A stretch of DNA of 64,000 bases from Deltaproteobacteria bacterium (GTDB lineage Bacteria > Bdellovibrionota > JACOXK01), in the NCBI GenBank assembly GCA_016186995.1, contig JACPKQ010000022.1, positions 78,556 through 142,555 on the forward strand, written 5' to 3'. Shown piece by piece: positions 5,411 to 50,120 of the stretch. The notes below the pieces were generated by a model. It made no database searches, had not been told where the DNA came from, and worked only from the letters and a program-made list of their open reading frames with translations. The position numbers and the translations under genes were made by a program. Numbering within the stretch: the first letter of the stretch is position 1; the number at the start of each line of letters is the position of its first letter.

Positions 5411-5650
5411 TTGTCGAGTTTATGTCACACGCATTATATCTTTCACTTCATGGTTCGCGATTTAGGCTCTTAAAATGGTTACTATCTTTCGCTTCATGGC
5501 TCGCTGTAGTTGCCATATCGAATTCTTCATTATCCCGTAAGTGCTAAAGCACTGTCCGGGATGCACAGTTTTGAATATTTACAAATCGTGGGCTGCGCTT
5601 TATTTCCGCTCCAGATAGTAACCATTTTCTCACATAAACTCGAATGCAAC
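5411..5650 (-). repeat. Composite palindromic repeat, type A, intergenic copy
   Basis: This is the left half of the 648-base gene-free stretch between the M16-like gene and tadC. Inverted arms AAAATGGTTACTATCT (5472-5487) and AGATAGTAACCATTTT (5613-5628) are perfect complements. Outside them are the family end motifs CACATAAACTCGAATGC and, on the other side, TTTAGGCTCTTAAAATGG. The interior holds CGCTTCATGGCTCGCTG, shared with the copies near 20.5 and 42.2 kb, plus a nested hairpin AGTGCTAAAGCACT inside a CGGGAT repeat. No ORF is supported here. Confidence 0.8.
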
Positions 5651-5688
5651 ATAAAGTTACCTAGTATGTTTTGAAGGCACATATAATC

Positions 5689-5842
5689 AAAAGATAGGGA
5701 TAGTGCTTACAGAGGGTCGTGTCGGAAGGCAAGCTGGCTTGGTCCACATAGAATATGTGGCAGATTGACTGAGACGCGAGGCGCACTTTTTCGCAGGAAA
5801 AAAGTGACGCCGTACCCGAGGGAAGTACTATCCCTATCTTTT
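5689..5842. repeat. Structured repeat element, type B, copy 1 (candidate structured RNA or MITE)
   Basis: This 154-base element has terminal arms AAAAGATAGGGATAGTGCTT and AAGTACTATCCCTATCTTTT that pair over 20 positions with one G.T wobble. The interior has internal hairpins: CCACAT..ATGTGG, and GGCG-ACTTTTTC pairing with GAAAAAAGT-CGCC. An almost identical interior recurs at 47196-47348. It is followed by the family end motif CCATTTTAAGAACCTAAG at about 5847. No coding sequence is evident. Confidence 0.8.
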
Positions 5843-5950
5843 GTGCCCATTTTAAGAACCTAAGAACGAGCTATGGTGTGAAATATTAAGTGTTATCAAG
5901 TGGTTAGAAGTCATTGATAAGTTCTCACACAGTTTGTTCTGGCGATTTCA

Positions 5951-17397: not shown

Positions 17398-17595
17398 ATG
17401 GTACGTTTGTGGAAACAATTCCTAAAAGATGAAAGTGGTCAAACGGCCACAGAATACATTCTTGTCATCGCTATTCTCTCGCTTTTTATTATTAAAGCGC
17501 TCGGTTTTTTTCGCGAAATTTTTTTAGAAGCAACACCTCAATTTGCAGACATCATTGAAGATGATTTGAAAACAGGAAGGGGGTTTGGAGAATAA
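17398..17595 (+). CDS. Second Flp-like pilin
   Basis: This 65-residue protein has a leader ending DESG, then QTATEYILVIAILSLFIIKAL, the same processing site and hydrophobic helix as Flp. The tail is acidic (DIIEDDLKTG), unlike the Gly-rich end of the first pilin, so it is more likely a minor pilin than a duplicate major subunit. Its stop overlaps the tadV start (TAATG). Confidence 0.85.
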   Translation: MVRLWKQFLKDESGQTATEYILVIAILSLFIIKALGFFREIFLEATPQFADIIEDDLKTGRGFGE

Positions 17596-18143
17596 TGGTT
17601 TTTGATATTCCGAGTTCTGTAGGCATTATTCTTCTAGCTACTACTTTGTTTTGCGTTATTACAGATTTTGTCAACGGAAAAATTTATAACTCTGTGACTT
17701 TTTCTATTATAGGTGTGGGTCTTTTATACCACAGCTTTTTTGCACAAGGTCATGGTTTTCAATTTTCAATTTTGGGCGTTGCGCTTGGTTTTGCTCTCTT
17801 TTTTTCATTTTTTGCTTTGCAAGCTATGGGGGCAGGAGATGTTAAACTTCTTATGGCTATAGGAGCTTTAACAGGGTGGCGCTTTACTTTAGGGGTAGCC
17901 ATCCTTTCATTTTTAGCAGGGGGGGTGATCTCAATCTTCCTTCTTATAAAACATGAAAGGTTTAAAAAAACTTTGAAATCAATAGGAACACTTTTGTGGA
18001 CGATGGTTGTTCCAGAAATGAAAATGCAAACACCAAAGATTGAAGATTGTCTTTTGTCTCCTTTTGCTTTGCCACTTTTTATTGGAGTGGTTCTTCAATA
18101 TTTTAAATTTATCGATATCGTTTCTCTTATGTGGAAGTTTTAA
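17595..18143 (+). CDS. tadV: TadV/CpaA prepilin peptidase (A24 family)
   Basis: This 182-residue membrane protein is an A24 aspartic prepilin peptidase that cuts the leaders of Flp and TadE-type pilins. The two catalytic aspartates are in VITDFVNGKI (Asp about 24) and in the family motif MGAGDVKLL (Asp about 81). About five hydrophobic helices span the sequence. It lacks the N-terminal methylase domain of PilD, as is usual for TadV/CpaA. Its position between pilin genes supports the call. Confidence 0.93.
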   Translation: MVFDIPSSVGIILLATTLFCVITDFVNGKIYNSVTFSIIGVGLLYHSFFAQGHGFQFSILGVALGFALFFSFFALQAMGAGDVKLLMAIGALTGWRFTLGVAILSFLAGGVISIFLLIKHERFKKTLKSIGTLLWTMVVPEMKMQTPKIEDCLLSPFALPLFIGVVLQYFKFIDIVSLMWKF

Positions 18144-18145
18144 AA

Positions 18146-18388
18146 ATGAATGAAAAAGGCCAAACCATTGTTGAGTATGTTCTTGTGTTGGCGATGAGCA
18201 CAATGATTATTGTCATAGTTTCAACCTATTTTCAAAAACCCCTTGGGCAGATTTTAGGTTTCTATCAAACAAGTATAGAATCGCTTGTTCGTTCTGGAGA
18301 TCTTAAATATGGAACACCCAGTGGGGATAAAGAAAAGCAAGAAGCTCCTCGGTTGAGGCATCAAGCTTTTAAGGAGTTTGCGAAATGA
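18146..18388 (+). CDS. Third Flp/TadE-like minor pilin
   Basis: The track ORF begins at 18131 inside tadV, but the start at 18146 (MNEKGQTIVEYV) is better: it follows GGAAG at a normal distance and gives the usual short leader. The 80 residues contain the cut site EKG/Q and hydrophobic helix TIVEYVLVLAMSTMIIVIVS, then a soluble, Lys/Glu-rich tail. It is probably a minor pilin. The stop overlaps the next start by four bases. Confidence 0.8.
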   Translation: MNEKGQTIVEYVLVLAMSTMIIVIVSTYFQKPLGQILGFYQTSIESLVRSGDLKYGTPSGDKEKQEAPRLRHQAFKEFAK

Positions 18389-18990
18389 AATTGTTGCGAA
18401 GCTTAAGTTCTTGGAATGGCATAATAACAACTTTGGTTCTGAGTAGGGAGGGTATTTACCCAATCCCTACTCTCTCATGGATACGTGTCATTGCGAGTGC
18501 AGCGAAGCAATCCCCTAGAATTCTTAAAAGAATTCTAGGAGATCACCACGGTTCATTTCATGAACCTCGTGATGACAGAAAAGCTGAAAAGGGGCAGGCG
18601 TTGACTGAATTTTTGCTTATTTTTATTTTACTTCTTTTTTTAATTCTTCTTCACTTTCAAGCTTCCATGAGTTTTGTTTCAAGTTCCTATATGAACTATG
18701 TTTCTTTCATGGGGGCTCGTACCAATATGGTGAGTGGAGAAGATCGTGCCCGGGCTGTTATTGAAAACATGTTAGGGCCATCTGAAGCAGGTTATCTAAG
18801 CCCTTTTGCTAGAGCAGAAGAAGCTCGGGTTACAGAAGGTGGGGTGGGTATTCCTTATAAATCCTATCTTTATATTCCTATTTTAAGATTTCAGGGACAA
18901 AAGGAAATGAATTTAGAAGCTACAACCCCTATGCGAAGAGAACCTGATTCTAATGCCTGTGGAAATCTGGAGCATGACAATGGGTGCTAA
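18385..18990 (+). CDS. TadE-like minor pilin with a repeat-expanded leader
   Basis: The mature part starts at AEKGQALTEFLLIFILLLFLIL (about residues 67-88), a TadE-type processing site and membrane helix. A soluble domain of about 110 residues follows. Between the initiator region (MKLLRSL) and this site lie about 60 residues encoded by a dispersed repeat (18401-18578), including the tell-tale WIRVIASAAKQSPR. Without the repeat, the leader would be about ten residues, as in its neighbours. The insert keeps the frame and would be removed by TadV with the leader, so the mature pilin is unchanged. Whether so long a leader is processed well is unknown. Confidence 0.8.
   Translation: MKLLRSLSSWNGIITTLVLSREGIYPIPTLSWIRVIASAAKQSPRILKRILGDHHGSFHEPRDDRKAEKGQALTEFLLIFILLLFLILLHFQASMSFVSSSYMNYVSFMGARTNMVSGEDRARAVIENMLGPSEAGYLSPFARAEEARVTEGGVGIPYKSYLYIPILRFQGQKEMNLEATTPMRREPDSNACGNLEHDNGC
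18401..18578 (+). repeat. Composite palindromic repeat inside the tadE-like gene
   Basis: It opens with the family end motif GCTTAAGTTCTTGGAATGGC. Then come the hairpin CTTTGGTTCT-GAGTAGGGA..TCCCTACTC-TCTCATGG, the unit TGTCATTGCGAG..GAAGCAATC, the palindrome CCTAGAATTCTT-AAA-AGAATTCTAGG, and GGTTCAT-TTC-ATGAACC before GTGATGACAG. The same module order recurs at 46925-47168. It is read through in frame. Confidence 0.85.
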
Positions 18991-19531
18991 CAATCTTTAT
19001 CTTTTTGTGAAATACGCCGATAAGCTCTCGGGATGTATTATTATGAAGTTTCGAAGTTATGTAAAGAAATGGTCTAGCATGTCCATGAGCACGGGGCAGT
19101 CGGCTATTGAATTTGTCTTTGTTGTTCCTGTTTTATTCCTATTGCTGTTATGGACGTTTCAATTTTTTTACGCGATCCACACATCAAATGTGAACCAAAA
19201 ATATGCGAGAGAAGAGCTTATGAAACAAATAAATCACCACAGGGATTTAAGAAACTCATCGGCTCCCGGGGTTGCACAATATGATTTTGAAAATGATGGG
19301 TACTTCCTCTCTGAGAGAATGCCGCATATGGAAAAAGATATTTATAGAAATCGTTTTTCAAACGGAAAAACTTTTTTTGCAGTGAGTGTGACAGGTACAC
19401 CTGAAGGAAGCGATGTACCGCAAAGAATTGTAGGAGAACCGAAGGTCAACGAAAAAGGTGAAATGGATCAAAAAAATATTTTAAAAGTTTATACGACGGT
19501 CGGAATTTGTCGTGATGAGGAATGTAAGTAA
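18980..19531 (+). CDS. TadE-family minor pilin
   Basis: This pseudopilin carries the TadE pattern STGQSAIEFVFVVPVLFLLLLWTFQFFY, then a soluble domain of about 140 residues. The track start is 18953. The ATG at 18980 is preferred because GGAG lies seven bases before it. A further ATG at 19043 (MKFRSYVKKW) would give a shorter leader. The stretch GTTATGTAAAGAAATGGTC just before the processing site matches one end of the dispersed repeat family, so the leader may carry a repeat remnant. It is co-transcribed with its neighbours. Confidence 0.8.
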   Translation: MGANNLYLFVKYADKLSGCIIMKFRSYVKKWSSMSMSTGQSAIEFVFVVPVLFLLLLWTFQFFYAIHTSNVNQKYAREELMKQINHHRDLRNSSAPGVAQYDFENDGYFLSERMPHMEKDIYRNRFSNGKTFFAVSVTGTPEGSDVPQRIVGEPKVNEKGEMDQKNILKVYTTVGICRDEECK

Positions 19532-19548
19532 AGGGGAAGGTTAAATAC

Positions 19549-20364
19549 ATGAAAAATTCAAAAGCTGTTATTATTTCAGGTTTATTAGCTGCAGTTTCAG
19601 TAGGGTTGCTTTATCTATGGGTTCAGCAAAAAACGGGCCCAAGCCTTGGAGAAACAGCAGAAGTTTATGTTATGGCAGGAGATGTAGGAGAGCTTGTTTC
19701 TATTGATGAAACGATGGTGCGAAAAGTGGCGTTACCTAAAAAATATATTCAACCAGGTGCGCTTGATAATTTAAATGTGATTATTGGAAGTATTGCTCGT
19801 GCCCCAATACAAAAGGGTGAACAAGTTCTTTTTACAAAGCTTTATTTAAAAGGGCAGCAAAATATTAATCTTTCCAGGCGTGTTTCAAAAAACAGCCGTG
19901 CTATTACGATTCCTGTTTCAGATGTTCATGGGGTCGCTAAGCTTATTCAACCCGGAGATCGAGTTGATGTTGTTGTTTCTGTTGATTACGGCGAGGGAGA
20001 TCGTGAAGTGCGCGAAGTAAAAACAGCTATGCAGGATGTTCTTGTTTTAGCAACAGGGCAATACATTGATTCAAACATTCCTTTAGAAAGACATGTTGAT
20101 GAAGTTACAGGTGCTATTAAAAGACAAGATTTAAGGCAAGAAAGGTACCGAAGTGTCACTTTAGAAGCAAACCCTGAACAAGTTCAAAAACTTGTTTTTA
20201 TGATGACGGCAGGGGAAGGGCTTATTTTCCTTTCTTTAAGAAACCCGTTGGATCGAGATTTTACAAGCATGGGAACAGCAGATCATGACACAGTATTGGG
20301 GCCAACGAGTAAAAGAGGGTCTCGAATTCGAATGCAGCGTCGACCTTTATGGCAGGAGTTTTAA
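19549..20364 (+). CDS. cpaB: CpaB/RcpC pilus assembly protein
   Basis: CpaB/RcpC is a periplasmic protein tied to the Tad secretin. The 271 residues show an N-terminal membrane anchor (about 6-24), an SAF-like domain (about 38-105, VYVMAGDVGELVSIDETMV) and the RcpC domain with RRVSKNSRAITIPVS and KLIQPGDRVDVVVS. It lies between the minor pilins and the secretin, the standard order. A clear AAGGGGAAGG-type ribosome site precedes the ATG. Confidence 0.92.
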   Translation: MKNSKAVIISGLLAAVSVGLLYLWVQQKTGPSLGETAEVYVMAGDVGELVSIDETMVRKVALPKKYIQPGALDNLNVIIGSIARAPIQKGEQVLFTKLYLKGQQNINLSRRVSKNSRAITIPVSDVHGVAKLIQPGDRVDVVVSVDYGEGDREVREVKTAMQDVLVLATGQYIDSNIPLERHVDEVTGAIKRQDLRQERYRSVTLEANPEQVQKLVFMMTAGEGLIFLSLRNPLDRDFTSMGTADHDTVLGPTSKRGSRIRMQRRPLWQEF

Positions 20365-20378
20365 AAAAGGATATTTTC

Positions 20379-22202
20379 ATGAGAACTTATAAAATAAATA
20401 ACACAGTTAAGTTCTTGAAATGGCTAGTTTACATAAACACGAGCTTAAGCAAGCACACTATTCGTGACTATGTGAAGAAATGGTCAGTGTTTGGAGCGGA
20501 AGTAAAGCGCAGCCCACGGTTCGTAATAAAAAGAATATCGATCCTTTGGCTGAAGCCTCTGGATGACAAACTACAGCGAGCCATGAAGCGGAAAACACTG
20601 CCATTTCAAGAACCTAAGCTGCAAAATACATTATTGCTGTTGATAACCTTTTTTTTACTAAGCATCTCAAGTATGAATACCGCTTTTTCGAAGACGGAAG
20701 AGAAGGTGGATATTCCTACTGTTTATCTTAATTTTACAAACAATATTCCAAAGTTTCGCCGTGTTGATTTTTCCATTGGTAGAGTTGTTCCAGCAGATAG
20801 AAATATTGCAAATGGGCTGATTCCACCAGGGCAAAAAGTGCCAAGTCTTATTCACTTTATTCCTAAAACACCCGGGCTTACAAGTATTACTGTTTACGAT
20901 ACCAAAAATAACCCACGTATTGTTTACCAAATTACAGTTCTCTCCAAAGATCAGGGGGCTATTATTTCTGAACTCAATCAACTCTTAGGAGAAGTCGAGG
21001 GTATTCAGATAAGCCCAGTAGGTACTAAGGTCGCTATTGGTGGAGAAATTATTTTGCCTCGTGATTTAAGAAAAATTATTTCTGTTATAGGTCAAGTTGA
21101 TAAAGATAAAGATTATAAAGGTAAAATTATTTTAACTGCAGCTCTTTCAGATCTTTCAAAACAACTGATTGCTAACATGATTATGAGAGAAATTTCAGAA
21201 AATGAAGCTCTTAAATCTGTAGCCGCCAAGGTTTATGTAAAACCTATTAAAAATAATTTTCAACTCGTAGGTATTGTTGATACCGATGATCAAAGAAAAA
21301 AAATAGAAACCATTGCTTTTGAATTCATTCCCGATTTTTATAGAGAGCCTTCTCAATTTAAAGAATTTGAAATTCAAATGCCCTTACCACGAATTGTAAA
21401 CTTGATCGATTTAGCGCCTGAAAAGAAAGAAGCACCTAAAGCGCCCACACTTTATAAGATTACAGCTCGTTATGTTGAGATGAATAAAAACTATCTTCGT
21501 CAGTTTGGTATTGATTGGGGACCAGGGTTTGTGGATACCTCAAAGCTTGAGGTCGATTCTGAAAAGGTAGGTGTTATTGGAGCTGTCACAGGAACAATAA
21601 ATAGCCTCATTCCAAAATTAAAAACGGCCAAGGAATTAGGTTTAGCGCGCGAACTTCAAGCTTTTGAAATTCTTATAACTGAAGGAGAAAACGGCATTAT
21701 TTCTAATGTAACGAATATTCCTTTTCCTGTGATTGGCGAAAGAGGGCAAGAGGGCACCGAGTTTGCTCCGACAGGTTTAGATGCAGTCGTCAAACCAAAT
21801 GCTATTGGAGATAAAGCCAATAATGTTAAATTAGCACTTAAGTTCAGTCTTAAAACATTAGCTGGTTTCGTCAATGCTAGACCTTCTATTACTGAAAACA
21901 AAATGGATACAACCATTACTCTTAAACCAGATCAAAGTGCTGCTATTGGTGGTTTAGTGACGGCAAGTTTAGGAAAAGAGTTTAATAGAATGCCTAAAGC
22001 AACACAGGAAATATCAGATCCTATTTTTAGATTACTTCGTTCTAAAGCGTTTCGAGATAATAAGTCTCAATTTGTTATTTTCGTGACTCCTCAGATCATG
22101 ACAGATGTCAAAGTGAATGCTGAGGCTTCTACTGTTGGAGATAAGTTTAACATCAAGTTACCTGAGGCTATTAAAGATGATCCGGGGTTAACGGAGAATT
22201 AA
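20379..22202 (+). CDS. cpaC: CpaC/RcpA outer-membrane secretin of the Tad pilus
   Basis: This secretin forms the outer-membrane pore for the pilus. The track ORF begins at 20349, but the ATG at 20379 (MRTYKINN) has AAGG at a good distance and leaves the cpaB end free. A signal-peptide core (NTLLLLITFFLLSIS) appears only at about residue 85 because about 70 residues encoded by a repeat are inserted before it. Downstream are a pilus-secretin N domain (about 115-190), a BON-like segment (IISVIGQVDKDKDYKGK), and the secretin domain (about 430-590) with LKPDQSAAIGGLV and FVIFVTPQIMTD. A second ATG inside the repeat (MKRKTLPFQ, about 20584) would give a normal signal peptide and may be the start now used. 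Confidence 0.9.
   Translation: MRTYKINNTVKFLKWLVYINTSLSKHTIRDYVKKWSVFGAEVKRSPRFVIKRISILWLKPLDDKLQRAMKRKTLPFQEPKLQNTLLLLITFFLLSISSMNTAFSKTEEKVDIPTVYLNFTNNIPKFRRVDFSIGRVVPADRNIANGLIPPGQKVPSLIHFIPKTPGLTSITVYDTKNNPRIVYQITVLSKDQGAIISELNQLLGEVEGIQISPVGTKVAIGGEIILPRDLRKIISVIGQVDKDKDYKGKIILTAALSDLSKQLIANMIMREISENEALKSVAAKVYVKPIKNNFQLVGIVDTDDQRKKIETIAFEFIPDFYREPSQFKEFEIQMPLPRIVNLIDLAPEKKEAPKAPTLYKITARYVEMNKNYLRQFGIDWGPGFVDTSKLEVDSEKVGVIGAVTGTINSLIPKLKTAKELGLARELQAFEILITEGENGIISNVTNIPFPVIGERGQEGTEFAPTGLDAVVKPNAIGDKANNVKLALKFSLKTLAGFVNARPSITENKMDTTITLKPDQSAAIGGLVTASLGKEFNRMPKATQEISDPIFRLLRSKAFRDNKSQFVIFVTPQIMTDVKVNAEASTVGDKFNIKLPEAIKDDPGLTEN
20407..20619 (+). repeat. Composite palindromic repeat, type A, inside cpaC
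   Basis: The element is bounded by inverted ends TTAAGTTCTTGAAATGG (20407-20423) and CCATTTCAAGAACCTAA (about 20601-20617). Inside, GAAATGGTCAGTGTTT (about 20477-20493) pairs with AAACACTGCCATTTC near the right end. The interior shares TGGAGCGGAAGTAAAGCG and GCGAGCCATGAAGCGGAA with the copy near 42.2 kb. It is about 213 bases, so it adds about 71 codons without breaking the frame. Confidence 0.85.
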
Positions 22203-22308: not shown

Positions 22309-24459
22309 GTGGCCATGAAGCATATTGTTAGTATTTTTGGGGGGAAAGATGGCGTTGGCAAATCTGTTTTTGCCGCCAACTATGCGTGTACCTTTTTAAA
22401 TAATCAAAGAAAAAGAACACTTCTTATTGATCTTGATGCAGAGCGCTGTGGTGATCAAGGGCTTATTTTTGCAACAGCTTTTCCTAAAACTCTAGCACAA
22501 TATTCAAGTGGAGAGCGTGCAGATCTTCAAGCTATTCAAGGTTGTATTGTAAAACATTCGGGGGGTGTAGAGATCATTCAGGCTTTCCGGGATCAATATG
22601 AAAAGGCTCAGTTAAGTCCTGCTTTTTTCGATAAAATTTTAAGAGAACTTCATCGTCATTATGATCTTATTGTCATTGATGGGGGTGCTCAGTTTGATCC
22701 TCTTGTTATTAAAGCATTTGAAGTTTCTACAGCACTTTTCCTTGTGACAAATCCAGATGTGCTCACACTTTCTCAAACTAAAAAAACATTAGAAAAACTT
22801 CACTCACTTCTTTTTCCAAAAGAAATGATTAAAATTATTTTGAACAAGTACAGCAGTGAAGCACTTATCTCGCCTCAGATGGTTCAAAAAAATTTAGGCT
22901 ACCCTTTGTTTGCTGCCATTCAACAAGACGACAGAACGTGTTCCTATGCTCTTGCCAAAGGGCAACCCTTTGCTCTTTATCAAACTCGTACAGGGGTTGC
23001 GCAATCATTTATTCAATTTGATCAGGTGCTTTCTCAAAGAAAAGTTTTAGAAGGGTTGCAATCTCTGAAAAAGCCAAGGGCTTCTTTTCAGATTCAAGAG
23101 AACATGGAAGAACTTAAAGCAACAGGTACTGAAGGCAGACAAGTTTATCAAAGAGGTTCACGAAGAAAAGTGTCCCAAGATCCGCGAACACTTTTAAAGC
23201 TTCAGATTCATGAACAACTTGTTGAAACGCTTAATTTAAAAAAAATGGATACAGCTGAAGTTGAAGCAGACCCACATAAAAAAGAACAGCTTCGTGAAAA
23301 AACAAAAAAGGCTGTTTTAGAGTTGATCGATAAACATGATTTATCGTCCTATACACACGAAGATAAAAAGACTTTGGTTGGGGAGATTTTAGATGAAGCT
23401 TTGGGTTTGGGACCTCTTGAAAAACTTCTTCAAGATGAGGAGGTGAATGAGATCATGGTCAATTCCAGAGATCAAATTTATGTTGAAAAGGGTGGAAACA
23501 TTACTTTAACAGATCTTTCTTTTACCTCCGACAATCAGTTACTTACAGTTATTGAAAGAATTGTAGCTCCTTTAGGAAGACGTATTGATGAACAAACTCC
23601 TTACTGTGATGCGAGATTACCTGACGGCTCTCGTGTGCATGCTATTATTCCACCACTTTCTATTCAAGGGCCTATGATTACTATTCGTAAATTTTCCAAA
23701 ATACCACTTCAGGTGAAAGATTTGATTCGCTTTGATTCTTTTACAGAAGATATGGCTGCTTTTTTTAAGGCGTGTATTGAAGCACGTCTTAATATTGTCA
23801 TTTCAGGGGGTACAGGAACTGGTAAGACGACACTTCTCAATGTTCTTTCTTCTTTTATTCCACAGCGAGAAAGAATTATTACCATCGAAGACTCAGCTGA
23901 GTTGCAGTTAAAACAACCTCATGTAGCGCGTCTTGAAGCCCGACCTCCTAATATTGAAGGAAAAGGGGCTGTGACGATTCGCGATCTTGTTAAAAACACT
24001 TTGAGAATGCGCCCTGACCGTATCGTTGTTGGAGAGTGCCGAAGTGGAGAAGCACTCGACATGCTTCAAGCGATGAATACAGGTCATGATGGGTCACTCA
24101 CAACAATTCACGCGAACTCGCCCAGGGATTGTCTTTCACGTTTGGAAACCCTTGTTATGATGGCTGGAATGGATCTTCCAAGCCGTGCTATTCGTGAACA
24201 AATTACTTCTGCCATTGATATTATTGTTCAAATTTCGCGTCTTTCTGATGGGTCTAGGAAGATTACAAAAGTAACTGAAGTGACGGGTATGGAAGGGGAT
24301 GTGATTACCCTTCAAGATATTTTTGTTTTTAAGCAAACGGGGCTTTCAGCAGACAGAAAAGTACAAGGTGTTTTCACAACAACAGGTTTTGTGCCCCGTT
24401 TTGTTGAAGAACTTAAACAAAAAGGAGTTCATTTACCAGAGGGGTTATTTAATAAATAA
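22309..24459 (+). CDS. cpaF: Fused CpaE-like ATPase and CpaF/TadA secretion ATPase
   Basis: This 716-residue protein joins two Tad proteins that are normally separate. Residues 1 to about 240 form a CpaE/MinD-like ATPase with deviant Walker A GGKDGVGKS (11-19), LLIDLDAE and DLIVIDGG. CpaE usually localises the pilus machine. From about 290 on it is CpaF/TadA: an N-terminal helical domain, Walker A GGTGTGKTT (about 500), the Asp/Glu boxes TIEDSAELQL, RMRPDRIVVGECR, and the His box LTTIHANSPRD. The track start is GTG at 22309 behind GGGAG. An ATG two codons later is equally possible. There is no frameshift between the halves; a linker of about 50 charged residues joins them. Confidence 0.93.
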   Translation: MAMKHIVSIFGGKDGVGKSVFAANYACTFLNNQRKRTLLIDLDAERCGDQGLIFATAFPKTLAQYSSGERADLQAIQGCIVKHSGGVEIIQAFRDQYEKAQLSPAFFDKILRELHRHYDLIVIDGGAQFDPLVIKAFEVSTALFLVTNPDVLTLSQTKKTLEKLHSLLFPKEMIKIILNKYSSEALISPQMVQKNLGYPLFAAIQQDDRTCSYALAKGQPFALYQTRTGVAQSFIQFDQVLSQRKVLEGLQSLKKPRASFQIQENMEELKATGTEGRQVYQRGSRRKVSQDPRTLLKLQIHEQLVETLNLKKMDTAEVEADPHKKEQLREKTKKAVLELIDKHDLSSYTHEDKKTLVGEILDEALGLGPLEKLLQDEEVNEIMVNSRDQIYVEKGGNITLTDLSFTSDNQLLTVIERIVAPLGRRIDEQTPYCDARLPDGSRVHAIIPPLSIQGPMITIRKFSKIPLQVKDLIRFDSFTEDMAAFFKACIEARLNIVISGGTGTGKTTLLNVLSSFIPQRERIITIEDSAELQLKQPHVARLEARPPNIEGKGAVTIRDLVKNTLRMRPDRIVVGECRSGEALDMLQAMNTGHDGSLTTIHANSPRDCLSRLETLVMMAGMDLPSRAIREQITSAIDIIVQISRLSDGSRKITKVTEVTGMEGDVITLQDIFVFKQTGLSADRKVQGVFTTTGFVPRFVEELKQKGVHLPEGLFNK

Positions 24460-25452: not shown

Positions 25453-27306
25453 ATGAAGAAATATCTAATATTATTAAGTTTTTTAATTTTAAATGCAACG
25501 CACGTTTTTGGAGGCAGTGTCAACCCTGAAACAGGTGGGTACACACTTGCCCTTCAAGATTTTAAAATAGAAGACACAGTTTATGATTTGGAACTGAACC
25601 GTACTTATAACAGTCTTTCTCTTCACAAAAGCCTTTTTGGGTTTAAGTGGAGAAGCACTTTAAGGCCTTCTTTTGAAGTGATGCCTAATGGGTATATTCA
25701 AATTGTAGATGGCCATGGTTTTCACACCGTTTTTAAACCCAAAACGATTTCTTCACAATCTAAAATAGATCTTGCGCGCAATGTTTTTAATAAATTAGAA
25801 GAATCAGAAAAAACAGAAGCCGTTAAGAAAAAACTAGAAACAGATGAGAAGTTTCTTGAAACAAAAATGAATGAGGTTGTTATAGCCGAAATTGTTAGAA
25901 AATTTCCTAAAGCCAAACAAGTACAAATGAAATCTTTGATAGAAAAAAATTCTTTTTTAAGAGAAAGATGGGCGCAAAGTTTTAATGTGCATCTTTTTAA
26001 ATATTCAGAAGGATCTGTTTTTGAAACCCATGACAGAGGCCCTGAGCTTTTAGAATATAAAAGATTTCAAGTTCAGGAAAAAAATATTTTAAAAAATGAA
26101 TTAGGTTACGTAAGAACTTATCTTTTAACAGGTAAAAAAGAGTTTTATGATCGTTATCATAGAATCGTGCGGTCTTTAGACCCATCTGGAAATTTTCTTG
26201 AGTATGAATATGTTGATAATAGTGAAAACAAATATCAACTTAAACAAATTAAAAATAAATCAGGTCAGTATATTAGGTTTACATACAATAAAAAAGGTTT
26301 TGTGGTACAAGCTCAAAGTTCAAAGGGTGATATAAGAACATATCAGTATAACGATAAAGATCTTTTAATGGAAGTTCTCAATCAAAAGGGTGGTAAAGAA
26401 ATTTATAAATATGGTAAAAATAGCCTTTTAGAAAGCGTCCAGCGTAGTGACAAAGAAGAGTTGCTTTCTTATTATCCTGATAATCGTGTTAAAACCTATG
26501 GCCTTAAAGGCACTACTTTAACAACACATTATGCTTATGAGCCTGAAACCTATGCTTCACACTCACTTCATAATAAAACAAGTATTAAGCGTGTTTATGA
26601 AACAACAAAAGATAAGAGTTTCAGTAGTGTTGTATCAACAGAACGTTGGTATGGTTTAAGAGATAATCACACACGTTTTCTTAAAAAAGAAAAAATTGAG
26701 CGAGGCAATGAAAGCACTGAAACGGAATATAGCGAGTGTTGTGGCAAGCCTTTAAAAATTATAGAAACAGTGAAAGACCCTAGTGGAAGAACACCGACCA
26801 GTATTCGTAAAGCAAGTTTTACTTATGATGTTCAAGGAAGGCTTACTGAAAAAGTGGAGCCTAATGGGCAAGTAGTTAAACGAGAATATTATGAAGGGGC
26901 CCTATCCCATAAAATTAAAAGAGTGTTGCGTGGTAATTTAGATCTCAATTTTGAATACAATAAAGAGGGCGATGTTAAAAAAGCCATAAAAAAAGAAAAA
27001 TTAGGGGATGCTACAGAAGTAACAACCGTGTTTATCGATTATGACAATCGAGGAAGGGTTAAAACCATGACTGATAAAAACCCTAAAGGTGAAGTCAGAA
27101 TTGTTACTTTTGAACATAATAGAAGTGGAAATCCTATTACGATTGGTATTAAGGGTTTGGGCACTATTCATGTGAAGTATAATAGTGAAGGTAAGATCGT
27201 TGATATTCAATCTCAAAAGGGCCAAGAGGTGGCTGTGCAGGTAACAGAGGCTTTTAATAAGCTTCTTAACATCTTAGAGCCTGCTGGGGTTAATTTAAGT
27301 TTGTAG
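25453..27306 (+). CDS. Secreted RHS/YD-repeat protein without a toxin end
   Basis: This 617-residue protein has an N-terminal signal peptide (cut near HVFG/GS). An RHS-type opening follows (VNPETGGYTLALQDFKIEDTVYDLELNRTYNS), then YD-like repeats, for example GNFLEYEYVDN, YIRFTYNKKGFV and IRTYQYNDKDLLM. It is short for an RHS protein and lacks both the conserved core boundary motif (PxxxxDPxG) and a variable toxin domain. It is more likely a surface carbohydrate-binding or wall-like protein than an effector. It lies 35 bases after tadB in the same direction with a GGGGGAG ribosome site, so it may be made with the pilus. Confidence 0.8.
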   Translation: MKKYLILLSFLILNATHVFGGSVNPETGGYTLALQDFKIEDTVYDLELNRTYNSLSLHKSLFGFKWRSTLRPSFEVMPNGYIQIVDGHGFHTVFKPKTISSQSKIDLARNVFNKLEESEKTEAVKKKLETDEKFLETKMNEVVIAEIVRKFPKAKQVQMKSLIEKNSFLRERWAQSFNVHLFKYSEGSVFETHDRGPELLEYKRFQVQEKNILKNELGYVRTYLLTGKKEFYDRYHRIVRSLDPSGNFLEYEYVDNSENKYQLKQIKNKSGQYIRFTYNKKGFVVQAQSSKGDIRTYQYNDKDLLMEVLNQKGGKEIYKYGKNSLLESVQRSDKEELLSYYPDNRVKTYGLKGTTLTTHYAYEPETYASHSLHNKTSIKRVYETTKDKSFSSVVSTERWYGLRDNHTRFLKKEKIERGNESTETEYSECCGKPLKIIETVKDPSGRTPTSIRKASFTYDVQGRLTEKVEPNGQVVKREYYEGALSHKIKRVLRGNLDLNFEYNKEGDVKKAIKKEKLGDATEVTTVFIDYDNRGRVKTMTDKNPKGEVRIVTFEHNRSGNPITIGIKGLGTIHVKYNSEGKIVDIQSQKGQEVAVQVTEAFNKLLNILEPAGVNLSL

Positions 27307-41796: not shown

Positions 41797-42325
41797 ATCC
41801 CCCTTATCGGAATATTACGTGTCATCCTGAGCCGCTTCATGGCTCGTGTTCAAAAATCCTTCAACTTTAAGTTCTTAAAAATGGCCACAAAAGACAGGGA
41901 TAGTGCTTCCCTCGATATATTACATCGGTGGGACTGTATTTCTCAAAAACACGCTATCAAAATTCCCTGCGAGAATTTTGCGCTCTCTCTCGGCCGCGAG
42001 AAGGTTTTTTTGAAACACAGTTCCACCTCTTTATATCTTTTGCCCTATAACTTTATTCTCGAGTTTATGTGAAGATGGGCTGAATTTCGAGTCCATGAGA
42101 GAGTAGGGACTGGGTAAACACCCTCCCTACTCAGAACCAAAGTTGTAATTATGTGAGGAAATGGTCAGTGTCTGGAGCGGAAGTAAAGCGGAGCTCTATG
42201 AGGCCTTGCCGAATAAAGAGCGAGCCATGAAGCGGAAGACACTGCCATTTCAAGAACTTAAGTTCGAATAAACCCTGGATTCCCGCCTTCGCGGGAATGA
42301 CAGAGGGGGATCCCGGGAATGACAA
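41797..42325. repeat. Composite repeat array before the 42.6 kb gene
   Basis: This fills most of an 800-base gene-free stretch. Blocks in order: a family end TTAAGTTCTTAAAAATGGCC; a type-B-like arm ACAAAAGACAGGGATAGTGCTT; the inverted pair GGTGGGACTGT..ACAGTTCCACC; the end CGAGTTTATGTGAAGA; and the hairpin module GAGTAGGGA..TCCCTACTC (reverse). Next is a type A copy with AAATGGTCAGTGTCT..AGACACTGCCATTTCAAGAACTTAAG (about 42151-42262), then CATTCCCGC palindromes. From 42326 to 42550 I see no repeat or gene. Confidence 0.85.
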
Positions 42326-44312: not shown

Positions 44313-44345
44313 AATACCTGGGGCCCTTGCCCCGGGTATTTTTTT
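44313..44345 (+). terminator. Rho-independent terminator just before mutS
   Basis: AATACCTGGGGC-CCTT-GCCCCGGGTATT followed by TTTTT: a 12-base-pair stem with one wobble. It ends 17 bases before the mutS ATG. The 165 bases between the preceding stop and this stem hold no ORF; GAGGGTGAGAGTCCTC is a small local dyad. Confidence 0.92.
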
Positions 44346-44362
44346 GTCTTATAAATAGGTTC

Positions 44363-46921
44363 ATGAATCTATCTCACACCCCCATGATTGAGCAGTACTT
44401 ACGGCTTAAAAAACAATACCAAGATTGCATTCTTTTTTTTAGATTGGGTGATTTTTATGAGATGTTTTTTGAAGATGCCAGAGCTGCTTCAAAAATCCTC
44501 AACCTCACTTTAACTTCCCGTTATAAAAAGACAGATCACGAAGTTCCTATGTGTGGAGTGCCCCACCATGCAGCTGGCTCTTATATTAAAAAGCTCACTC
44601 ACAAGGGCTATCGTGTTGCTATTTGTGAGCAAACAGAAGAACCGCAACCTGGAAAAAATATTGTTGATCGCGATGTGGTTCAAATAGTAACACCTGCGCT
44701 TCCCTTTAATGAAGATGATCTTTTAGGAGAAGAAAACTATTATCTTATGGCAGTGTGTCCAACTTCACCTGTCATTGCGAGTGAAACGAAGCAATCCCAT
44801 CGCGGTAGCGATGAGATCACCACGCCCTCTGTCATCCCGGAAACGCGGAGCGTTATCCGGGATCCAGGGATCCAGAATTCAGAACTCCTGGATTCCCGCT
44901 TTCGCGGGAATGACAATAAAATTTTCAATGTTGCCTACATGTCTATTGTGACAGGAGAGTTTTATACTTTTTCCTGCGCCTCTCAAGAAGAGCTTATTTC
45001 AGAGTTGACTCGAATTGACCCTAAGGAAGTTTTAGTAGAAGAATCTTTCAAAAACGCAGAATGGGTGCAGTCTTTAAAACGAGAAAATTTTTATATTTAT
45101 TTTATTGCTTCCGCTCGTCATTGCGAGGAGTCAAAGACGACGCGGCAATCCCATCGCGGTAGCGATGAGATCACCACGCCCTACGGGCTCGTGATGACAC
45201 CCTGTTATTCTGCACAAGACATTTTATTTGAATATTTAAAACTCACAAAACATTATAAAACTACACTTTCTCCAGATTCAAACCTTCATCAAAACATGGT
45301 TTTAGATGGTAAAACTTTAAAAAACCTTGATGTTGTCCATCCATGGGGAGAAGAAAAACAATCTCTTTTTAAAACGCTTAACTTCACAAAATCAGCTTGT
45401 GGCGGAAGGCTTCTTAAAAAGTGGCTTAAATTTCCTCTTCTCAAAAGAAATCTCATTGAAGAGCGTCTCCACATTGTAAAAAAACTTTTTGATGTTCAGT
45501 ATTTAAGAGAATCTCTTCAAAAAAAATTAAATAACGTTTACGATTTAGAAAGAATTTGTTCCAAACTAGAGAGAAACCGCGCCCACCCGAAAGATTTAAA
45601 ACAACTTTTAGTAACCTTGGAGGTGGCCGTGGGGCTTCAGGCTGATGCGGCCCCCCTGTCATTGCGAACGAATGTGAAGCAATCCCCTAGAATAAACTCT
45701 TTAGTTGAAGATCCTCCTTTAAGTTTTTATGAAGGGGGTGTTTTTAAAAAGGGCTATTCCAAAGAGCTTGATGAGCTTATTGATTTAACTCACAATTATA
45801 AAACATGGGTTTTGCGTTATGAGGAAGAAGAAAAATCAAAAACAGGGATTTCTAGTCTTAAAGTAAAATATAATTCTATTTTTGGTTATTATATCGAAGT
45901 TCGAAAAACAAATTTAGATAAAGTACCTGAAACCTATCACAGAAAACAAACTCTTGTTCAAGCAGAAAGGTATACAACAGAAGAACTCAAAGATTTTGAA
46001 TCAAGAATTCTTTCCGCAGAAGTAAAAAGAAAAAAACTAGAAACTCAACTTTTTGAAAAACTGAGAGAAGATTTAAAAAGTTCTCTTTACCTTTTTATGA
46101 AAATAGGTACGGCTTTAGCAGAGCTTGATGTTTTTTGTGCACTTTCAGAAGCAGCGAATCGTTATCATTATGTCATGCCTCATATTGTAGAAGATCAAAG
46201 TTTAAAACTTTTTCAAAGTCGTCATCCAGTTGTGGAACAGGGTCACGATTTTATCCCCAACGATATTGTTATAGAAAAAGGGCATCTCCATCTTATTACG
46301 GGGCCTAATATGGGTGGAAAATCAACTGTGATGCGGCAGGTGGCTCTTTCACTTCTGATGATGCAGATGGGGAGTTTTGTGCCTGCAGAAAAAGCTTTTC
46401 TTCCTATCGTTGATCGCATTTTTACCCGAATTGGGGCTTCTGATGATATTGCTCAAGGAGAGAGTACTTTTATGGTTGAGATGAAAGAAACTTCACATAT
46501 TTTAGCATCTGCGACACATCAAAGCTTTATTATACTTGATGAGGTGGGGCGTGGCACAAGTACATTTGATGGATTGAGTTTAGCGTGGTCTATTGCTGAG
46601 TGGATTGTAGAAGAAATAAGGTGTCTGACGCTGTTTGCAACGCACTATCATGAATTGACTGTTCTTTCTCAAAAATATGAAAATATTAAAAATGAGCATA
46701 TGGCAGCTCTTAAAAAAGGAAATGAGATTGTTTTTCAAAGAAAACTGAAACCAGGTGCTTTAAGTGCAAGTTTTGGAATTGAAGTGGGGCGTTTGGCAGG
46801 TCTTCCTGTGCAACTTTTAGAAAGGGCCCAAGAAGTGTTAAAAGGGCTTACCTTGCAGTCTCGTGAAAGCAAACCATCGTCTCTCAAACCCTCACCTTCC
46901 ACCCAAAAACTCCTCTTTTAA
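44363..46921 (+). CDS. mutS: DNA mismatch repair protein MutS, with three in-frame repeat insertions
   Basis: MutS finds mispaired bases and recruits MutL. The mismatch-binding domain is present (RLGDFYEMFFEDA, with the Phe-x-Glu pair). So are the clamp and the ATPase with TGPNMGGKST, the Walker B region IILDEVGRGTST and LFATHYHELT. The track start (44327) is a TTG inside the terminator stem; the ATG at 44363 (MNLSHTPMIEQYL) matches other MutS starts. Three repeat-encoded peptides interrupt the normal sequence: about 49 residues between domains I and II, about 28 in domain II, and about 12 in the lever/clamp region. No stop or frame change results, so a working protein is plausible. Confidence 0.95.
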   Translation: MNLSHTPMIEQYLRLKKQYQDCILFFRLGDFYEMFFEDARAASKILNLTLTSRYKKTDHEVPMCGVPHHAAGSYIKKLTHKGYRVAICEQTEEPQPGKNIVDRDVVQIVTPALPFNEDDLLGEENYYLMAVCPTSPVIASETKQSHRGSDEITTPSVIPETRSVIRDPGIQNSELLDSRFRGNDNKIFNVAYMSIVTGEFYTFSCASQEELISELTRIDPKEVLVEESFKNAEWVQSLKRENFYIYFIASARHCEESKTTRQSHRGSDEITTPYGLVMTPCYSAQDILFEYLKLTKHYKTTLSPDSNLHQNMVLDGKTLKNLDVVHPWGEEKQSLFKTLNFTKSACGGRLLKKWLKFPLLKRNLIEERLHIVKKLFDVQYLRESLQKKLNNVYDLERICSKLERNRAHPKDLKQLLVTLEVAVGLQADAAPLSLRTNVKQSPRINSLVEDPPLSFYEGGVFKKGYSKELDELIDLTHNYKTWVLRYEEEEKSKTGISSLKVKYNSIFGYYIEVRKTNLDKVPETYHRKQTLVQAERYTTEELKDFESRILSAEVKRKKLETQLFEKLREDLKSSLYLFMKIGTALAELDVFCALSEAANRYHYVMPHIVEDQSLKLFQSRHPVVEQGHDFIPNDIVIEKGHLHLITGPNMGGKSTVMRQVALSLLMMQMGSFVPAEKAFLPIVDRIFTRIGASDDIAQGESTFMVEMKETSHILASATHQSFIILDEVGRGTSTFDGLSLAWSIAEWIVEEIRCLTLFATHYHELTVLSQKYENIKNEHMAALKKGNEIVFQRKLKPGALSASFGIEVGRLAGLPVQLLERAQEVLKGLTLQSRESKPSSLKPSPSTQKLLF
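44770..44914. repeat. Palindromic repeat block 1 in mutS
   Basis: GTCATTGCGAG..GAAGCAATC with stem CATCGC-GGTAGCGATG, then GTCATCCCGGA..CCGGGATCCAG, then CTGGATTCCCGC-TTTC-GCGGGAATGACA. These are three unit types in tandem, translated without a stop (IASETKQSHRGSDEITTP and LLDSRFRGNDN). Confidence 0.9.
45116..45199. repeat. Palindromic repeat block 2 in mutS
   Basis: CGTCATTGCGAGG..CGGCAATCCCATCGCGGTAGCGATGAGATCACCACGCCCTACGGGCTCGTGATGACA. The CATCGCGGTAGCGATGAGATCACCACGCCC part is identical to block 1, and both are read in the same frame (SHRGSDEITTP). Confidence 0.9.
45657..45692. repeat. Partial TCATTGCGAG repeat in mutS
   Basis: CTGTCATTGCGAACGAATGTGAAGCAATCCCCTAGAAT is a half unit without its right arm. 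It encodes LSLRTNVKQSPRI between conserved stretches of the lever/clamp region. Confidence 0.85.
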
Positions 46922-47168: not shown

Positions 47169-47195
47169 CGAAAAATAAAAACTAAAGCTTATGTA

Positions 47196-47348
47196 AAAAA
47201 CAGGGGGAGTGCTTGCAGAGGGTCGTGTCGGAAGGAAATCTGGCTTGGTCCACATAGAATATGTGGCAGATTGACTGAGACGCGAGGCGCACTTTTTCGC
47301 AGGAAAAAAAGTGACGCCGTACCCGATGGAAGCACTCTCCCTGTTTTT
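47196..47348. repeat. Structured repeat element, type B, copy 2
   Basis: Terminal arms AAAAACAGGGGGAGTGCTT and AAGCACTCTCCCTGTTTTT pair over 19 positions with one wobble. The 115-base interior differs from copy 1 (5689-5842) at about five positions. It is flanked by TTATGT and by CCATTTCAAGAACTTAAG. The track ORF 47163-47369 and the long N-terminus of the lysS track ORF run into it and are not real. Confidence 0.82.
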
Positions 47349-47421
47349 GTTACCATTTCAAGAACTTAAGTACCGTTCTGAGATGACAGGGATGGAGTTT
47401 TTTGTTAGGTTTTCAAAGATT

Positions 47422-48882
47422 ATGGACCAATATTATAAACTCCGTTTAGAAAAGCTCGAGACTTTAGCCAAAAAGCGCAACCCTTATCCTAACGATTTTA
47501 AACCACAAAATCTTGCATTGGAGCTTGCTCAAAAGTTCAAGGATCAAGAAACACAAGAACTTGAAAAGCTCAAAGAAAAGTTTTCCCTAGCAGGTCGTAT
47601 CATGGCCAATCGAAGTTTTGGTAAAGCAGGGTTTTTAAAACTTCAAGATCGCTCTGGGTCTCTTCAGATTTACATAGGAAAGCAATTTTTAACAGGCGAA
47701 GATTTTGAAGAAACAAAACTTCTTGATATTGGAGATATTATAGGGGTTCAGGGCTCTATTTTTAGAACTCATAAGGGTGAGCTTTCTCTTAAAGCAGAAA
47801 GTTTTAAAATTTTAGTTAAAACTCTTCATACTCTTCCAGAAAAGTTTCATGGTTTAACAGATATAGAGCGGCGTTATCGAGAGCGCTATGTCGATCTTAT
47901 TATGAATCCGGAAGTAAAAGAAAAGTTTAAAGTTCGCGCGCACATGGTTTCTTATATAAGAAAATTTTTTACTGAAAGAGATTTCATGGAAGTGGAAACC
48001 CCTATGATGCAGCCTTTGTGTGGAGGGGCTACTGCTAAACCTTTCACAACACATCATAATGCACTCAATATGAAGCTTTACTTAAGAGTAGCTCCTGAAC
48101 TTTATTTAAAACGCCTTGTTGTAGGCGGTTTAGAAAGGGTTTTTGAGCTTAATCGGAATTTTAGAAATGAAGGGCTTTCCGCAAAACACAATCCTGAGTT
48201 CACCATGCTTGAGTTTTATCAATCTTATGCCACGTATGAAGATCTCATGAAATTAACAGAAGAACTTCTTTCAAACCTTGTAAAGCATCTTTTTAATTCT
48301 CATGAAGTTACTTTTGAAGAACGAAAAATTTCTTTTAAAACGCCTTTTGAAAAAATGACAGTGAAAGAAGCTATTCATAAGTATGTGGGTCTGTCAGAAA
48401 AAGATTTAAATGATGAAAAAAAACTTCAAGAGTTTTTAACTCAGAAAAAGATTCATTCAAGTGTAGAGAGTCCCCACATAGGAGATCTTCTCATGGATAT
48501 TTTTGACACTCAAGTTGAAGAAAAACTTGTACAACCTACTTTTATTACCCAATATCCACTTTCTGTCTCACCTCTTTCAAGAAGAAATGATAGCAATCCA
48601 GAATTTGTCGATCGTTTTGAGCTTTACATTTGCCAGCGTGAGATTGTCAACGCCTTTTCTGAGCTCAATGATCCTTTAGATCAGAAGAAAAGGTTTGAAG
48701 AGCAGGTTGAGCAAAATCGCGAAGGGGCTCAAATTGATGAAGATTATGTACGAGCTTTGGAATATGGACTTCCTCCAACAGGAGGTGAAGGAATAGGTAT
48801 TGATAGATTGGCTATGATTTTAACTGATTCTCATAATATTCGAGATGTTATTTTATTTCCTCACCTACGGCACGAACCTTGA
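47422..48882 (+). CDS. lysS: Lysyl-tRNA synthetase, class II
   Basis: LysS charges tRNA-Lys. The track ORF starts at 47311 inside a repeat. The ATG at 47422 (MDQYYKLRLEKLETL) fits the usual LysS start before NPYPNDF; an ATG at 47392 is also possible. It has the OB-fold anticodon domain (about 60-145), then motif 1, motif 2 (RNFRNEGLSAKHNPEFTMLE) and motif 3 (GEGIGIDRLAMIL) near the end. The stop overlaps the TTG start of lolC. Confidence 0.95.
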   Translation: MDQYYKLRLEKLETLAKKRNPYPNDFKPQNLALELAQKFKDQETQELEKLKEKFSLAGRIMANRSFGKAGFLKLQDRSGSLQIYIGKQFLTGEDFEETKLLDIGDIIGVQGSIFRTHKGELSLKAESFKILVKTLHTLPEKFHGLTDIERRYRERYVDLIMNPEVKEKFKVRAHMVSYIRKFFTERDFMEVETPMMQPLCGGATAKPFTTHHNALNMKLYLRVAPELYLKRLVVGGLERVFELNRNFRNEGLSAKHNPEFTMLEFYQSYATYEDLMKLTEELLSNLVKHLFNSHEVTFEERKISFKTPFEKMTVKEAIHKYVGLSEKDLNDEKKLQEFLTQKKIHSSVESPHIGDLLMDIFDTQVEEKLVQPTFITQYPLSVSPLSRRNDSNPEFVDRFELYICQREIVNAFSELNDPLDQKKRFEEQVEQNREGAQIDEDYVRALEYGLPPTGGEGIGIDRLAMILTDSHNIRDVILFPHLRHEP

Positions 48883-50120
48883 TTTCACTCACACTTGCAC
48901 GACGCTTTTTAAGACCGCAACAAAAAGATTCTTTTTTTTCATCTTTAGGTTTCATTACAATGTTAGGGGTGCTTATGGGTGTGACAACGCTGATTGTTGT
49001 TTACTCTGTTTTTTTAGGATTTGAGAAAAAACTTAAAAGTATTATTATGGATTCTTATCCCCATGTTCTCCTGGAAAAGCGTTTTGAGGGGAGTGACAAG
49101 CCGCTTCTTGATTTTTTGAAAAAAGATGACAAGGTTCAGGGGGTTTCACCTCTACTTTCTTATCAGGGATTACTTTCTCACAAGGGACAAGTAAAAGGGG
49201 TAGGACTTTATGGGATTGAATTAAACTCGTTTAAAAAGGTTGTTTCCATCAATAAATTTCTCATTCAAAACAACTCTGTCATTCCCGCCAAAAGCCCTGG
49301 GCACAAGCGGGAATCTAGAAAGCGTAGCCACCTCATAGATCTCAAAAACAATGAAATTATTTTAGGAGATAAACTTGCACATTTTTTAAATGTTTCCGAA
49401 AATGAAAAAGTAAAATTTGTCTATGTTGATGATGAAGGTGGCACCCATATTGAAGAGCTTAAAGTTAAAGCTGTATTTCACATTGGACGCTTTGAACAGG
49501 ATTTTAAAACAGCTTATGTTTCTTTCAATTGGCTTAAAGAAAAACTCAATGAAAAAAGTCTTGTTTCTTTTGGAATCAGTTTAAAAAATCCATATAAAGT
49601 AGAAGAATTTATCCACAATTTAGAAAGTAGATTTCTTTTCTCTTATAATATTCAAACATGGAAGAATGTTGATAGACTTTTTCTCCGATCTATTGTTGTA
49701 GAACGTAGAATGATGATTGTTATTTTGGCTATTATTATTCTTGTAGCAAGTTTTAACATTATGAGTCTTCTTCTCATTATTGCAAAAAAACGCATGAAAG
49801 AAGTGGGTATTCTTTTAGCTATGGGAGCACAACCCAAACTTTTAAGACGGGTTTTTTTATGGATGGGAATTCTTGTTTGTAGCGGAGGGATTATTGGGGG
49901 TGTATTAGGTGCCTTCGGGGTTGCTTTTATTTTAAAAAACTATCCTCTTCTAGAGCTTCCTTCCGATGTCTATCAACTTTCTTATCTTCCTATTTATATA
50001 GACCCAATTTTTGTTATTTTCGTTATAAGTTTAAGTATTATTATTTGTTTGTTGAGTGTTCTCGTTCCAAGTATTACAGTTTCAAAAGTGAACCCCATTC
50101 AAGGGATACAGTATGAGTGA
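48879..50120 (+). CDS. lolC: LolC/LolE-type lipoprotein-release permease
   Basis: This is the inner-membrane part of the LolCDE machine that lifts lipoproteins from the inner membrane for transport outward. It starts at TTG (MISLTLARRFLRP), overlapping lysS by four bases. Helix 1 (about 22-46) is followed by a periplasmic domain and an FtsX domain with three helices (about 275-405). One gene serves for both LolC and LolE here (LolF-like). Residues about 134-146 (SVIPAKSPGHKRES) are encoded by a CATTCCCGC palindrome inserted in the periplasmic domain. LolD follows with an eight-base overlap. Confidence 0.92.
   Translation: MISLTLARRFLRPQQKDSFFSSLGFITMLGVLMGVTTLIVVYSVFLGFEKKLKSIIMDSYPHVLLEKRFEGSDKPLLDFLKKDDKVQGVSPLLSYQGLLSHKGQVKGVGLYGIELNSFKKVVSINKFLIQNNSVIPAKSPGHKRESRKRSHLIDLKNNEIILGDKLAHFLNVSENEKVKFVYVDDEGGTHIEELKVKAVFHIGRFEQDFKTAYVSFNWLKEKLNEKSLVSFGISLKNPYKVEEFIHNLESRFLFSYNIQTWKNVDRLFLRSIVVERRMMIVILAIIILVASFNIMSLLLIIAKKRMKEVGILLAMGAQPKLLRRVFLWMGILVCSGGIIGGVLGAFGVAFILKNYPLLELPSDVYQLSYLPIYIDPIFVIFVISLSIIICLLSVLVPSITVSKVNPIQGIQYE
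49278..49320. repeat. CATTCCCGC palindrome inside lolC
   Basis: TGTCATTCCCGC..GCGGGAATCTAGA around a 20-base loop that reads CAAAAGCCCTGGGCACAA. It is translated in frame in the periplasmic domain. Confidence 0.85.

Follow-up and report, generated by a model that had tools for sequence, protein, structure and literature searches.

In the uncultured bacterium studied here, which is related to Bdellovibrio, short and dispersed palindromic repeats have inserted in frame between the native start codons and the export signals of two Tad pilus genes, tadE and cpaC. The best explanation, which we consider likely, is that these are selfish insertions tolerated in leaders that would subsequently be removed. 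Extended to the whole genome, the proposal would be that cleaved leaders are a safe harbour for selfish coding palindromes, with long inserts found almost only where they are removed, and that two genera or more arrived at this independently, through different repeats. We lean slightly towards this broader version.

Repeats lie in frame in the leaders of Tad pilus genes

We analysed a window of 64,000 nucleotides (contig C10, positions 78556-142555) from a MAG-like genome of 1.68 Mb in 30 contigs. It includes the Tad pilus operon that hosts both inserts (Table 1). Judged from the ORF list and Pfam, the operon consists of two Flp-like pilins, a prepilin-peptidase-like gene (17595-18143), three pilin-like genes, cpaB, cpaC, a fused CpaE-CpaF gene and a T2SSF gene. 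The fused gene is a single ORF (22309-24459) that joins CpaE/TadZ-like (CbiA/AAA_31) and CpaF/TadA (T2SSE) domains, for which two separate genes are usual, and an RHS/YD-repeat-like ORF (25453-27306) lies directly 3' of the T2SSF (TadB-like) gene. The secretin gene cpaC stands beside RcpC/CpaB, and homologues of its product were found in all 59 genomes searched.

The start codon of tadE overlaps the stop codon of the preceding tad gene (ATGA). Its insert of 180 nt, a multiple of three, encodes residues 6-65, between MKLLR and the predicted prepilin cleavage site KG↓QALTEF, and the original prediction of about 60 repeat-encoded residues before this site was borne out by a count of exactly 60 codons. 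The leader counted to the glycine is 70 aa long, and excision of the insert keeps the frame and leaves MKLLR-KAEKG↓QALTEF. The Pfam TadE score of the product lies just under the 22.9-bit cutoff; its G↓xxxxE site is intact. Self-comparison resolved the insert into a mosaic of three parts: a family end (TTAAGTTCTTGGAATGGC), a stretch of 62 nt with 95% identity to 42092-42153 in inverse orientation, and a TGTCATTGCGAG...CTCGTGATGACA palindrome. Ahead of the cut the sole ATG is that at 18385; the remaining in-frame candidates, TTG codons, fall at the very start or inside the repeat. Since no ATG follows the insert and the ATG at 18385 overlaps the upstream stop, translation would have to cross most of the insert.

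In cpaC, the native ATG is 14 nt past the cpaB stop codon. Self-comparison delimited the repeat as 20394-20641, which we take as about 20394-20621. The insert is 219 or 228 nt long, both multiples of three, and its exact 5' edge is uncertain because ATAAATAACACA is also common to tolB. We counted about 73-76 codons between MRTYKINN and the signal-peptide core, close to the predicted 71 or so. The insert is composed of two or three nested repeats: positions 20394-20449 are a 56-nt module with 91% identity to the tolB insert, and the core belongs to the family with about 40 genomic sites described below. Without the insert the frame is kept and the leader reads MRTYKINN-QNTLLLLITFF (MRTYKINN-QNTLLLLITFFLLSISSMNTAFSKTEE). 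As had been proposed, then, both repeats sit in leaders that are expected to be cleaved, and excision gives ordinary leaders in both genes.

A second TadE-like gene, between tadE and cpaC, starts within a shorter remnant, a repeat end. This remnant had been missed by the original prediction, which was right in assigning a repeat to the leaders of the other two genes and wrong in treating the cpaC insert as a single repeat.

Table 1. Features of the Tad leader inserts and related repeat copies in the window
Feature	Position	Strand	Basis
Family copy, in frame of no adjoining gene	5462..5645	-	Family match; fold z -5.75
Shine-Dalgarno AAGGAG of tadE	18371..18376	+	Duplex -8.7 kcal/mol for ATG 18385
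tadE-like minor pilin gene, 70-residue leader	18385..18990	+	ORF; Pfam TadE 21.5 bits
Composite repeat insert, tadE leader, 60 codons	18399..18578	+	Self-comparison; excision restores frame
Gly codon of predicted prepilin cut site KG↓QALTEF	18592..18594	+	Sequence and class III signal peptide rule (PMC4471445)
Second TadE-like (tadG/tadF) gene, leader 18 residues to TG↓QSAIEF	19043..19531	+	Pfam TadE 36 bits
25-nt repeat end TTCGAAGTTATGTAAAGAAATGGTC inside leader of second TadE-like gene	19050..19074	+	1 mismatch to family end; 0.00 expected, 100 shuffles
Shine-Dalgarno AAAGGA of cpaC	20366..20371	+	Duplex -5.4 kcal/mol for ATG 20379
cpaC (Tad secretin), 607 aa from native ATG	20379..22202	+	ORF; Pfam Secretin 50.2 bits
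Composite repeat insert, cpaC signal-peptide n-region	20394..20621	+	Family match; tolB match; frame kept on excision
Repeat-borne ATG (MKRKTLPFQ...), without Shine-Dalgarno, family-wide	20583..20585	+	Duplex +0.4 kcal/mol; family copies
Hydrophobic core and predicted signal-peptidase region TLLLLITFFLLSISSMNTAFS↓KTEE	20628..20690	+	Sequence; cut site inferred
Intergenic composite copy, modules in common with tadE and cpaC inserts	42060..42273	+	Self-comparison

The repeat family and the leaders of relatives

The family is dispersed, with 71 matches at about 40 sites of the genome. Its members are hairpin-forming palindromes, with DNA fold z scores of -5.2 for the tadE copy (18485-18580), -5.75 for the copy at 5462..5645 and -2.3 for the cpaC copy, in which the terminal inverted repeats AAATGG.CAGTGT...ACACTGCCATTT are paired. 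An Rfam scan of the window gave no match. In seven relatives we found no full element; two of these genomes, from the class, have just a 26-nt core in common with the family. A second dispersed repeat of about 180 nt (GGATAGTGCTTACAGAGGGTCGTGTCGG...), likewise without an Rfam match, is found near many copies of the first family; its two copies in the window (5688-5867 and 47179-47373) are 90% identical.

The 33 full-length copies assigned to no leader gene are seldom open: 5 of 198 frames (2.5%). Five copies border a downstream gene's open frame; of these, three (cpaC, tolB and lptE, all encoding exported proteins) are fully open and in frame, an outcome that at 2.5% chance each we would expect roughly once per several thousand trials. 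We considered and rejected the idea that the repeats encode a conserved peptide: cpaC, tolB and lptE read different frames, so no peptide is conserved among them, and the other copies are mostly closed.

The original prediction also called for a comparison with repeat-free relatives and would have been refuted by equally long non-repeat leaders in the closest ones; the leaders of repeat-free relatives proved to be short. CpaC alone as query gave no match, and relatives were found with an alignment query. Among named relatives, the best matches belonged to uncultured MAGs labelled 'Deltaproteobacteria', Oligoflexia or Bdellovibrionota, with JACOXK010000083.1 (58% identity) closest. We scored the N-termini of 90 CpaC relatives by a hydropathy rule; 84 had an ATG ahead of the core, and their first ATG lay a median of 5 and at most 55 residues from that core, with two above 30, versus 83 residues here from 20379. 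TadE leaders in the related class measure about 9-25 residues, and published prepilin leaders 6-26 aa (PMC4471445), versus 70 here.

The sister genus (G001, same family) has a TadE leader of about 43 residues (MNRLLHKEKYRSRVYPELQRRAFTQDDREPTQDDREPAQDDRG↓QALTEF). The DNA that encodes it is a dispersed repeat, unrelated to the present one and matched a further 16 times in the G001 genome. The G001 cpaB-cpaC gap (171 nt; L079:2842-3016) holds a 93-nt repeat-like segment with 92% identity to another site in the same contig stretch, and this segment is outside the reading frame and untranslated.

Long in-frame repeats precede export signals

In-frame repeats occur in the conserved genes mutS, rnhB, ribE, murE, rnr, tolB, lptE, cpaC and tadE, and in tolB and lptE the family lies in frame ahead of the export signals. 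Three contigs (442,771 bp) served as an unbiased sample for a survey; they contain 85 repeat segments, 47 of them intergenic and 38 touching ORFs. Leader regions, called by a hydropathy rule, held 8 of the 27 in-gene (leader or internal) repeat runs, compared with the 3.0% of coding sequence expected (binomial p 9e-7). Hand inspection removed one false positive (a D-aminoacylase-like protein) and added one false negative (an FN3-type secreted protein, C10:27492-28697, 62 codons), leaving the total at 8. Leader runs were longer than internal runs (p 0.006): the four longest in the sample (59, 62, 72 and 74 codons) all precede export signals, and the internal maximum was 34 codons.

A pilin-like protein (C19:40597) is a further case from the sample. 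Outside the sampled contigs, lptE (C28; Pfam LptE) has an insert of about 85 codons, and a putative lipoprotein at C13 (L111) one of about 40 codons, with the pattern seen in leaders. In two more proteins from the sample, at C4:155522 (L160:15522-15869, minus strand) and C10:30519 (L150:10519-12357, plus strand), the repeat starts directly after the hydrophobic core and appears to encode the presumed signal-peptide cleavage region itself.

Among the conserved genes, that of the mismatch-repair protein MutS (window 44327-46918) has three or more in-frame palindromic inserts, of 34, 10, 22 and about 9 codons, located within and next to domains II and III. Short in-frame inserts of 13-28 codons are present in LolC/E-like (window 48879-50117), RNase HII (L161:566-1264), riboflavin synthase (L160:12479-13243), MurE-like (C19:26259-27749, L163) and RNase R-like (C19:70298-72478, L165) genes.

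The leader enrichment might also arise if the repeats targeted gene starts, at AT-rich junctions or promoter regions, with cleavage irrelevant to their survival. The large intergenic share of the repeat segments fits such targeting, as does the fact that the cpaB-cpaC and tadE junctions were hit in two genera, and part of the enrichment could stem from insertion favouring sites close to gene starts. However, the starts of sampled cytoplasmic genes lack long in-frame inserts: repeat at their start edge spans 16-21 codons (lysS-like and D-Ala-ligase-like genes), an overlap that may simply reflect ORF calls extended into the repeat, and every insert of at least 59 codons precedes an export signal. 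We regard targeting without a role for cleavage as unlikely, if still worth serious consideration.

Start codons, function and assembly

We next consider where translation begins. The original prediction held that the cpaC repeat supplies an ATG and basic residues and so provided a new translation start. An in-frame ATG followed by basic residues is indeed present, 45 nt before the core, starting at 20583 rather than 20584. This ATG lies in GCGAGCCATGAAGCG, which is present in nearly every listed family copy, so its presence in cpaC is not special. For reference, Shine-Dalgarno duplexes had a median of -3.7 kcal/mol at long ORFs and -1.5 at random positions. The ATG at 20583 has no Shine-Dalgarno sequence, the ATG at 20379 has one, and the frame from 20379 is open across the whole insert, and therefore the data do not support the repeat as the source of the cpaC start. 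The ATG at 20583 may serve as a secondary (internal) start.

The same observations bear on the possibility that the cpaC repeat lies in a 5' untranslated region and that the true start is ATG 20583 (MKRKTLPFQEPKLQNTLLLL), giving an ordinary signal peptide. The position of this codon would suit such a peptide, and the untranslated repeat in the G001 cpaB-cpaC gap offers a parallel. Yet its duplex energy compares poorly with that at 20379 (+0.4 vs -5.4 kcal/mol), the native start has the close spacing behind cpaB that is also usual in relatives, the insert is fully open when 2.5% of frames are in unassigned copies, and for tadE an untranslated repeat is inapplicable. We consider this reading of cpaC improbable. 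In lptE the ATG ahead of the insert has a strong Shine-Dalgarno sequence (duplex -6.2 kcal/mol), and that behind it has none (+0.5). In tolB neither candidate is strong (+0.4 upstream, -2.2 downstream); because its upstream ATG has no Shine-Dalgarno sequence and comes directly after the preceding stop, the tolB insert could be 5' untranslated, with the start 243 nt downstream. A later ATG is also possible in some leader cases, such as the M48 lipoprotein.

That the inserts were recruited for a function, in targeting, translation pausing or the regulation of pilus and envelope proteins, strikes us as very improbable. The independent hits on the TadE leader in two genera and the strongly basic cpaC insert would suit recruitment, but the peptides and frames differ among cpaC, tolB and lptE with none conserved, and similar repeats are also found in mutS, rnhB, ribE and murE. 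Finally, although the genome is MAG-like, in 30 contigs, and repeats are hard to assemble, we reject an assembly or binning artefact as extremely unlikely, since no other copy exceeds 82% identity to that in cpaC, which is therefore no assembly duplicate, and an uninterrupted series of Tad genes in conserved order flanks the insert.

Discussion

Our preferred explanation is tolerance of selfish DNA in removed leaders. Short nested palindromic repeats would be mobilised and insert around the genome. An in-frame insertion between a start codon and an export signal would be tolerated, with the native start and ribosome-binding site staying in place; it would lengthen the cytoplasmic n-region or leader, and Sec/SRP would recognise the hydrophobic core behind it. 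The 60-80 extra residues would then be removed by signal peptidase I (CpaC, TolB), signal peptidase II (LptE) or the CpaA/TadV prepilin peptidase (TadE), and the mature protein is probably unchanged despite them, which would leave the insertions nearly neutral. Selection would act as a filter, purging long inserts from folded domains, with short ones persisting in loops and long ones in leaders. Leaders could hold long inserts because the extended n-region, mostly basic and cytoplasmic, would still be followed by a recognisable core and would later be cleaved away. The net charges of the inserts, +13 for cpaC and +3 for tadE, are compatible with the positive-inside topology of prepilins (PMC10191384). 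The tadE leader itself resembles class III (prepilin) signal peptides in being basic or neutral, ending in Gly and preceding a hydrophobic stretch with Glu5; it differs in its length.

Excerpts from the literature on Rickettsia (RPE) and Wolbachia palindromic elements describe short dispersed repeats in frame in conserved genes (PMC10969869, PMC3767692, PMC2229807). The present repeats are likewise palindromic, dispersed and in frame in conserved genes, with the frame tolerated. Unlike RPE, they occur in a different phylum (relatives in Bdellovibrionota, Oligoflexia or Deltaproteobacteria), their reading frame varies among copies with no conserved peptide, and their long inserts concentrate in leaders predicted to be cleaved, a bias that the RPE descriptions in those excerpts do not give. 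Our best view is that these are Rickettsia-type coding palindromes in a new phylum, likened to RPE by description, and tolerated in leaders because leaders would be removed. In Yersinia, one predicted signal peptide consists partly of a repeat (PMC2759123). In this RU-2/YPAL case (YPO1552) the repeat makes up the signal of a putative exported protein that would be new, whereas here the n-region of pre-existing conserved exported proteins is lengthened, in four genes or more, besides some weaker cases. Intragenic MITEs such as the Neisseria NEMIS/Correia and enterobacterial ERIC elements are also non-autonomous, have terminal inverted repeats and can fuse to genes, but the copies here are nested mosaics, and we noticed neither a transposase nor a target-site duplication with them. 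The literature that we searched, the original RPE papers apart, contained no report of such elements in Bdellovibrionota, nor of a bias towards cleaved leaders.

The finding suggests a rule, open to testing, on where DNA of this kind persists, namely in the parts of proteins that get cut off. It is also a warning to gene callers, since starts near repeats can be miscalled in either direction. Leaders of 70 or more residues are natural extremes for testing how much length Sec and prepilin peptidase tolerate.
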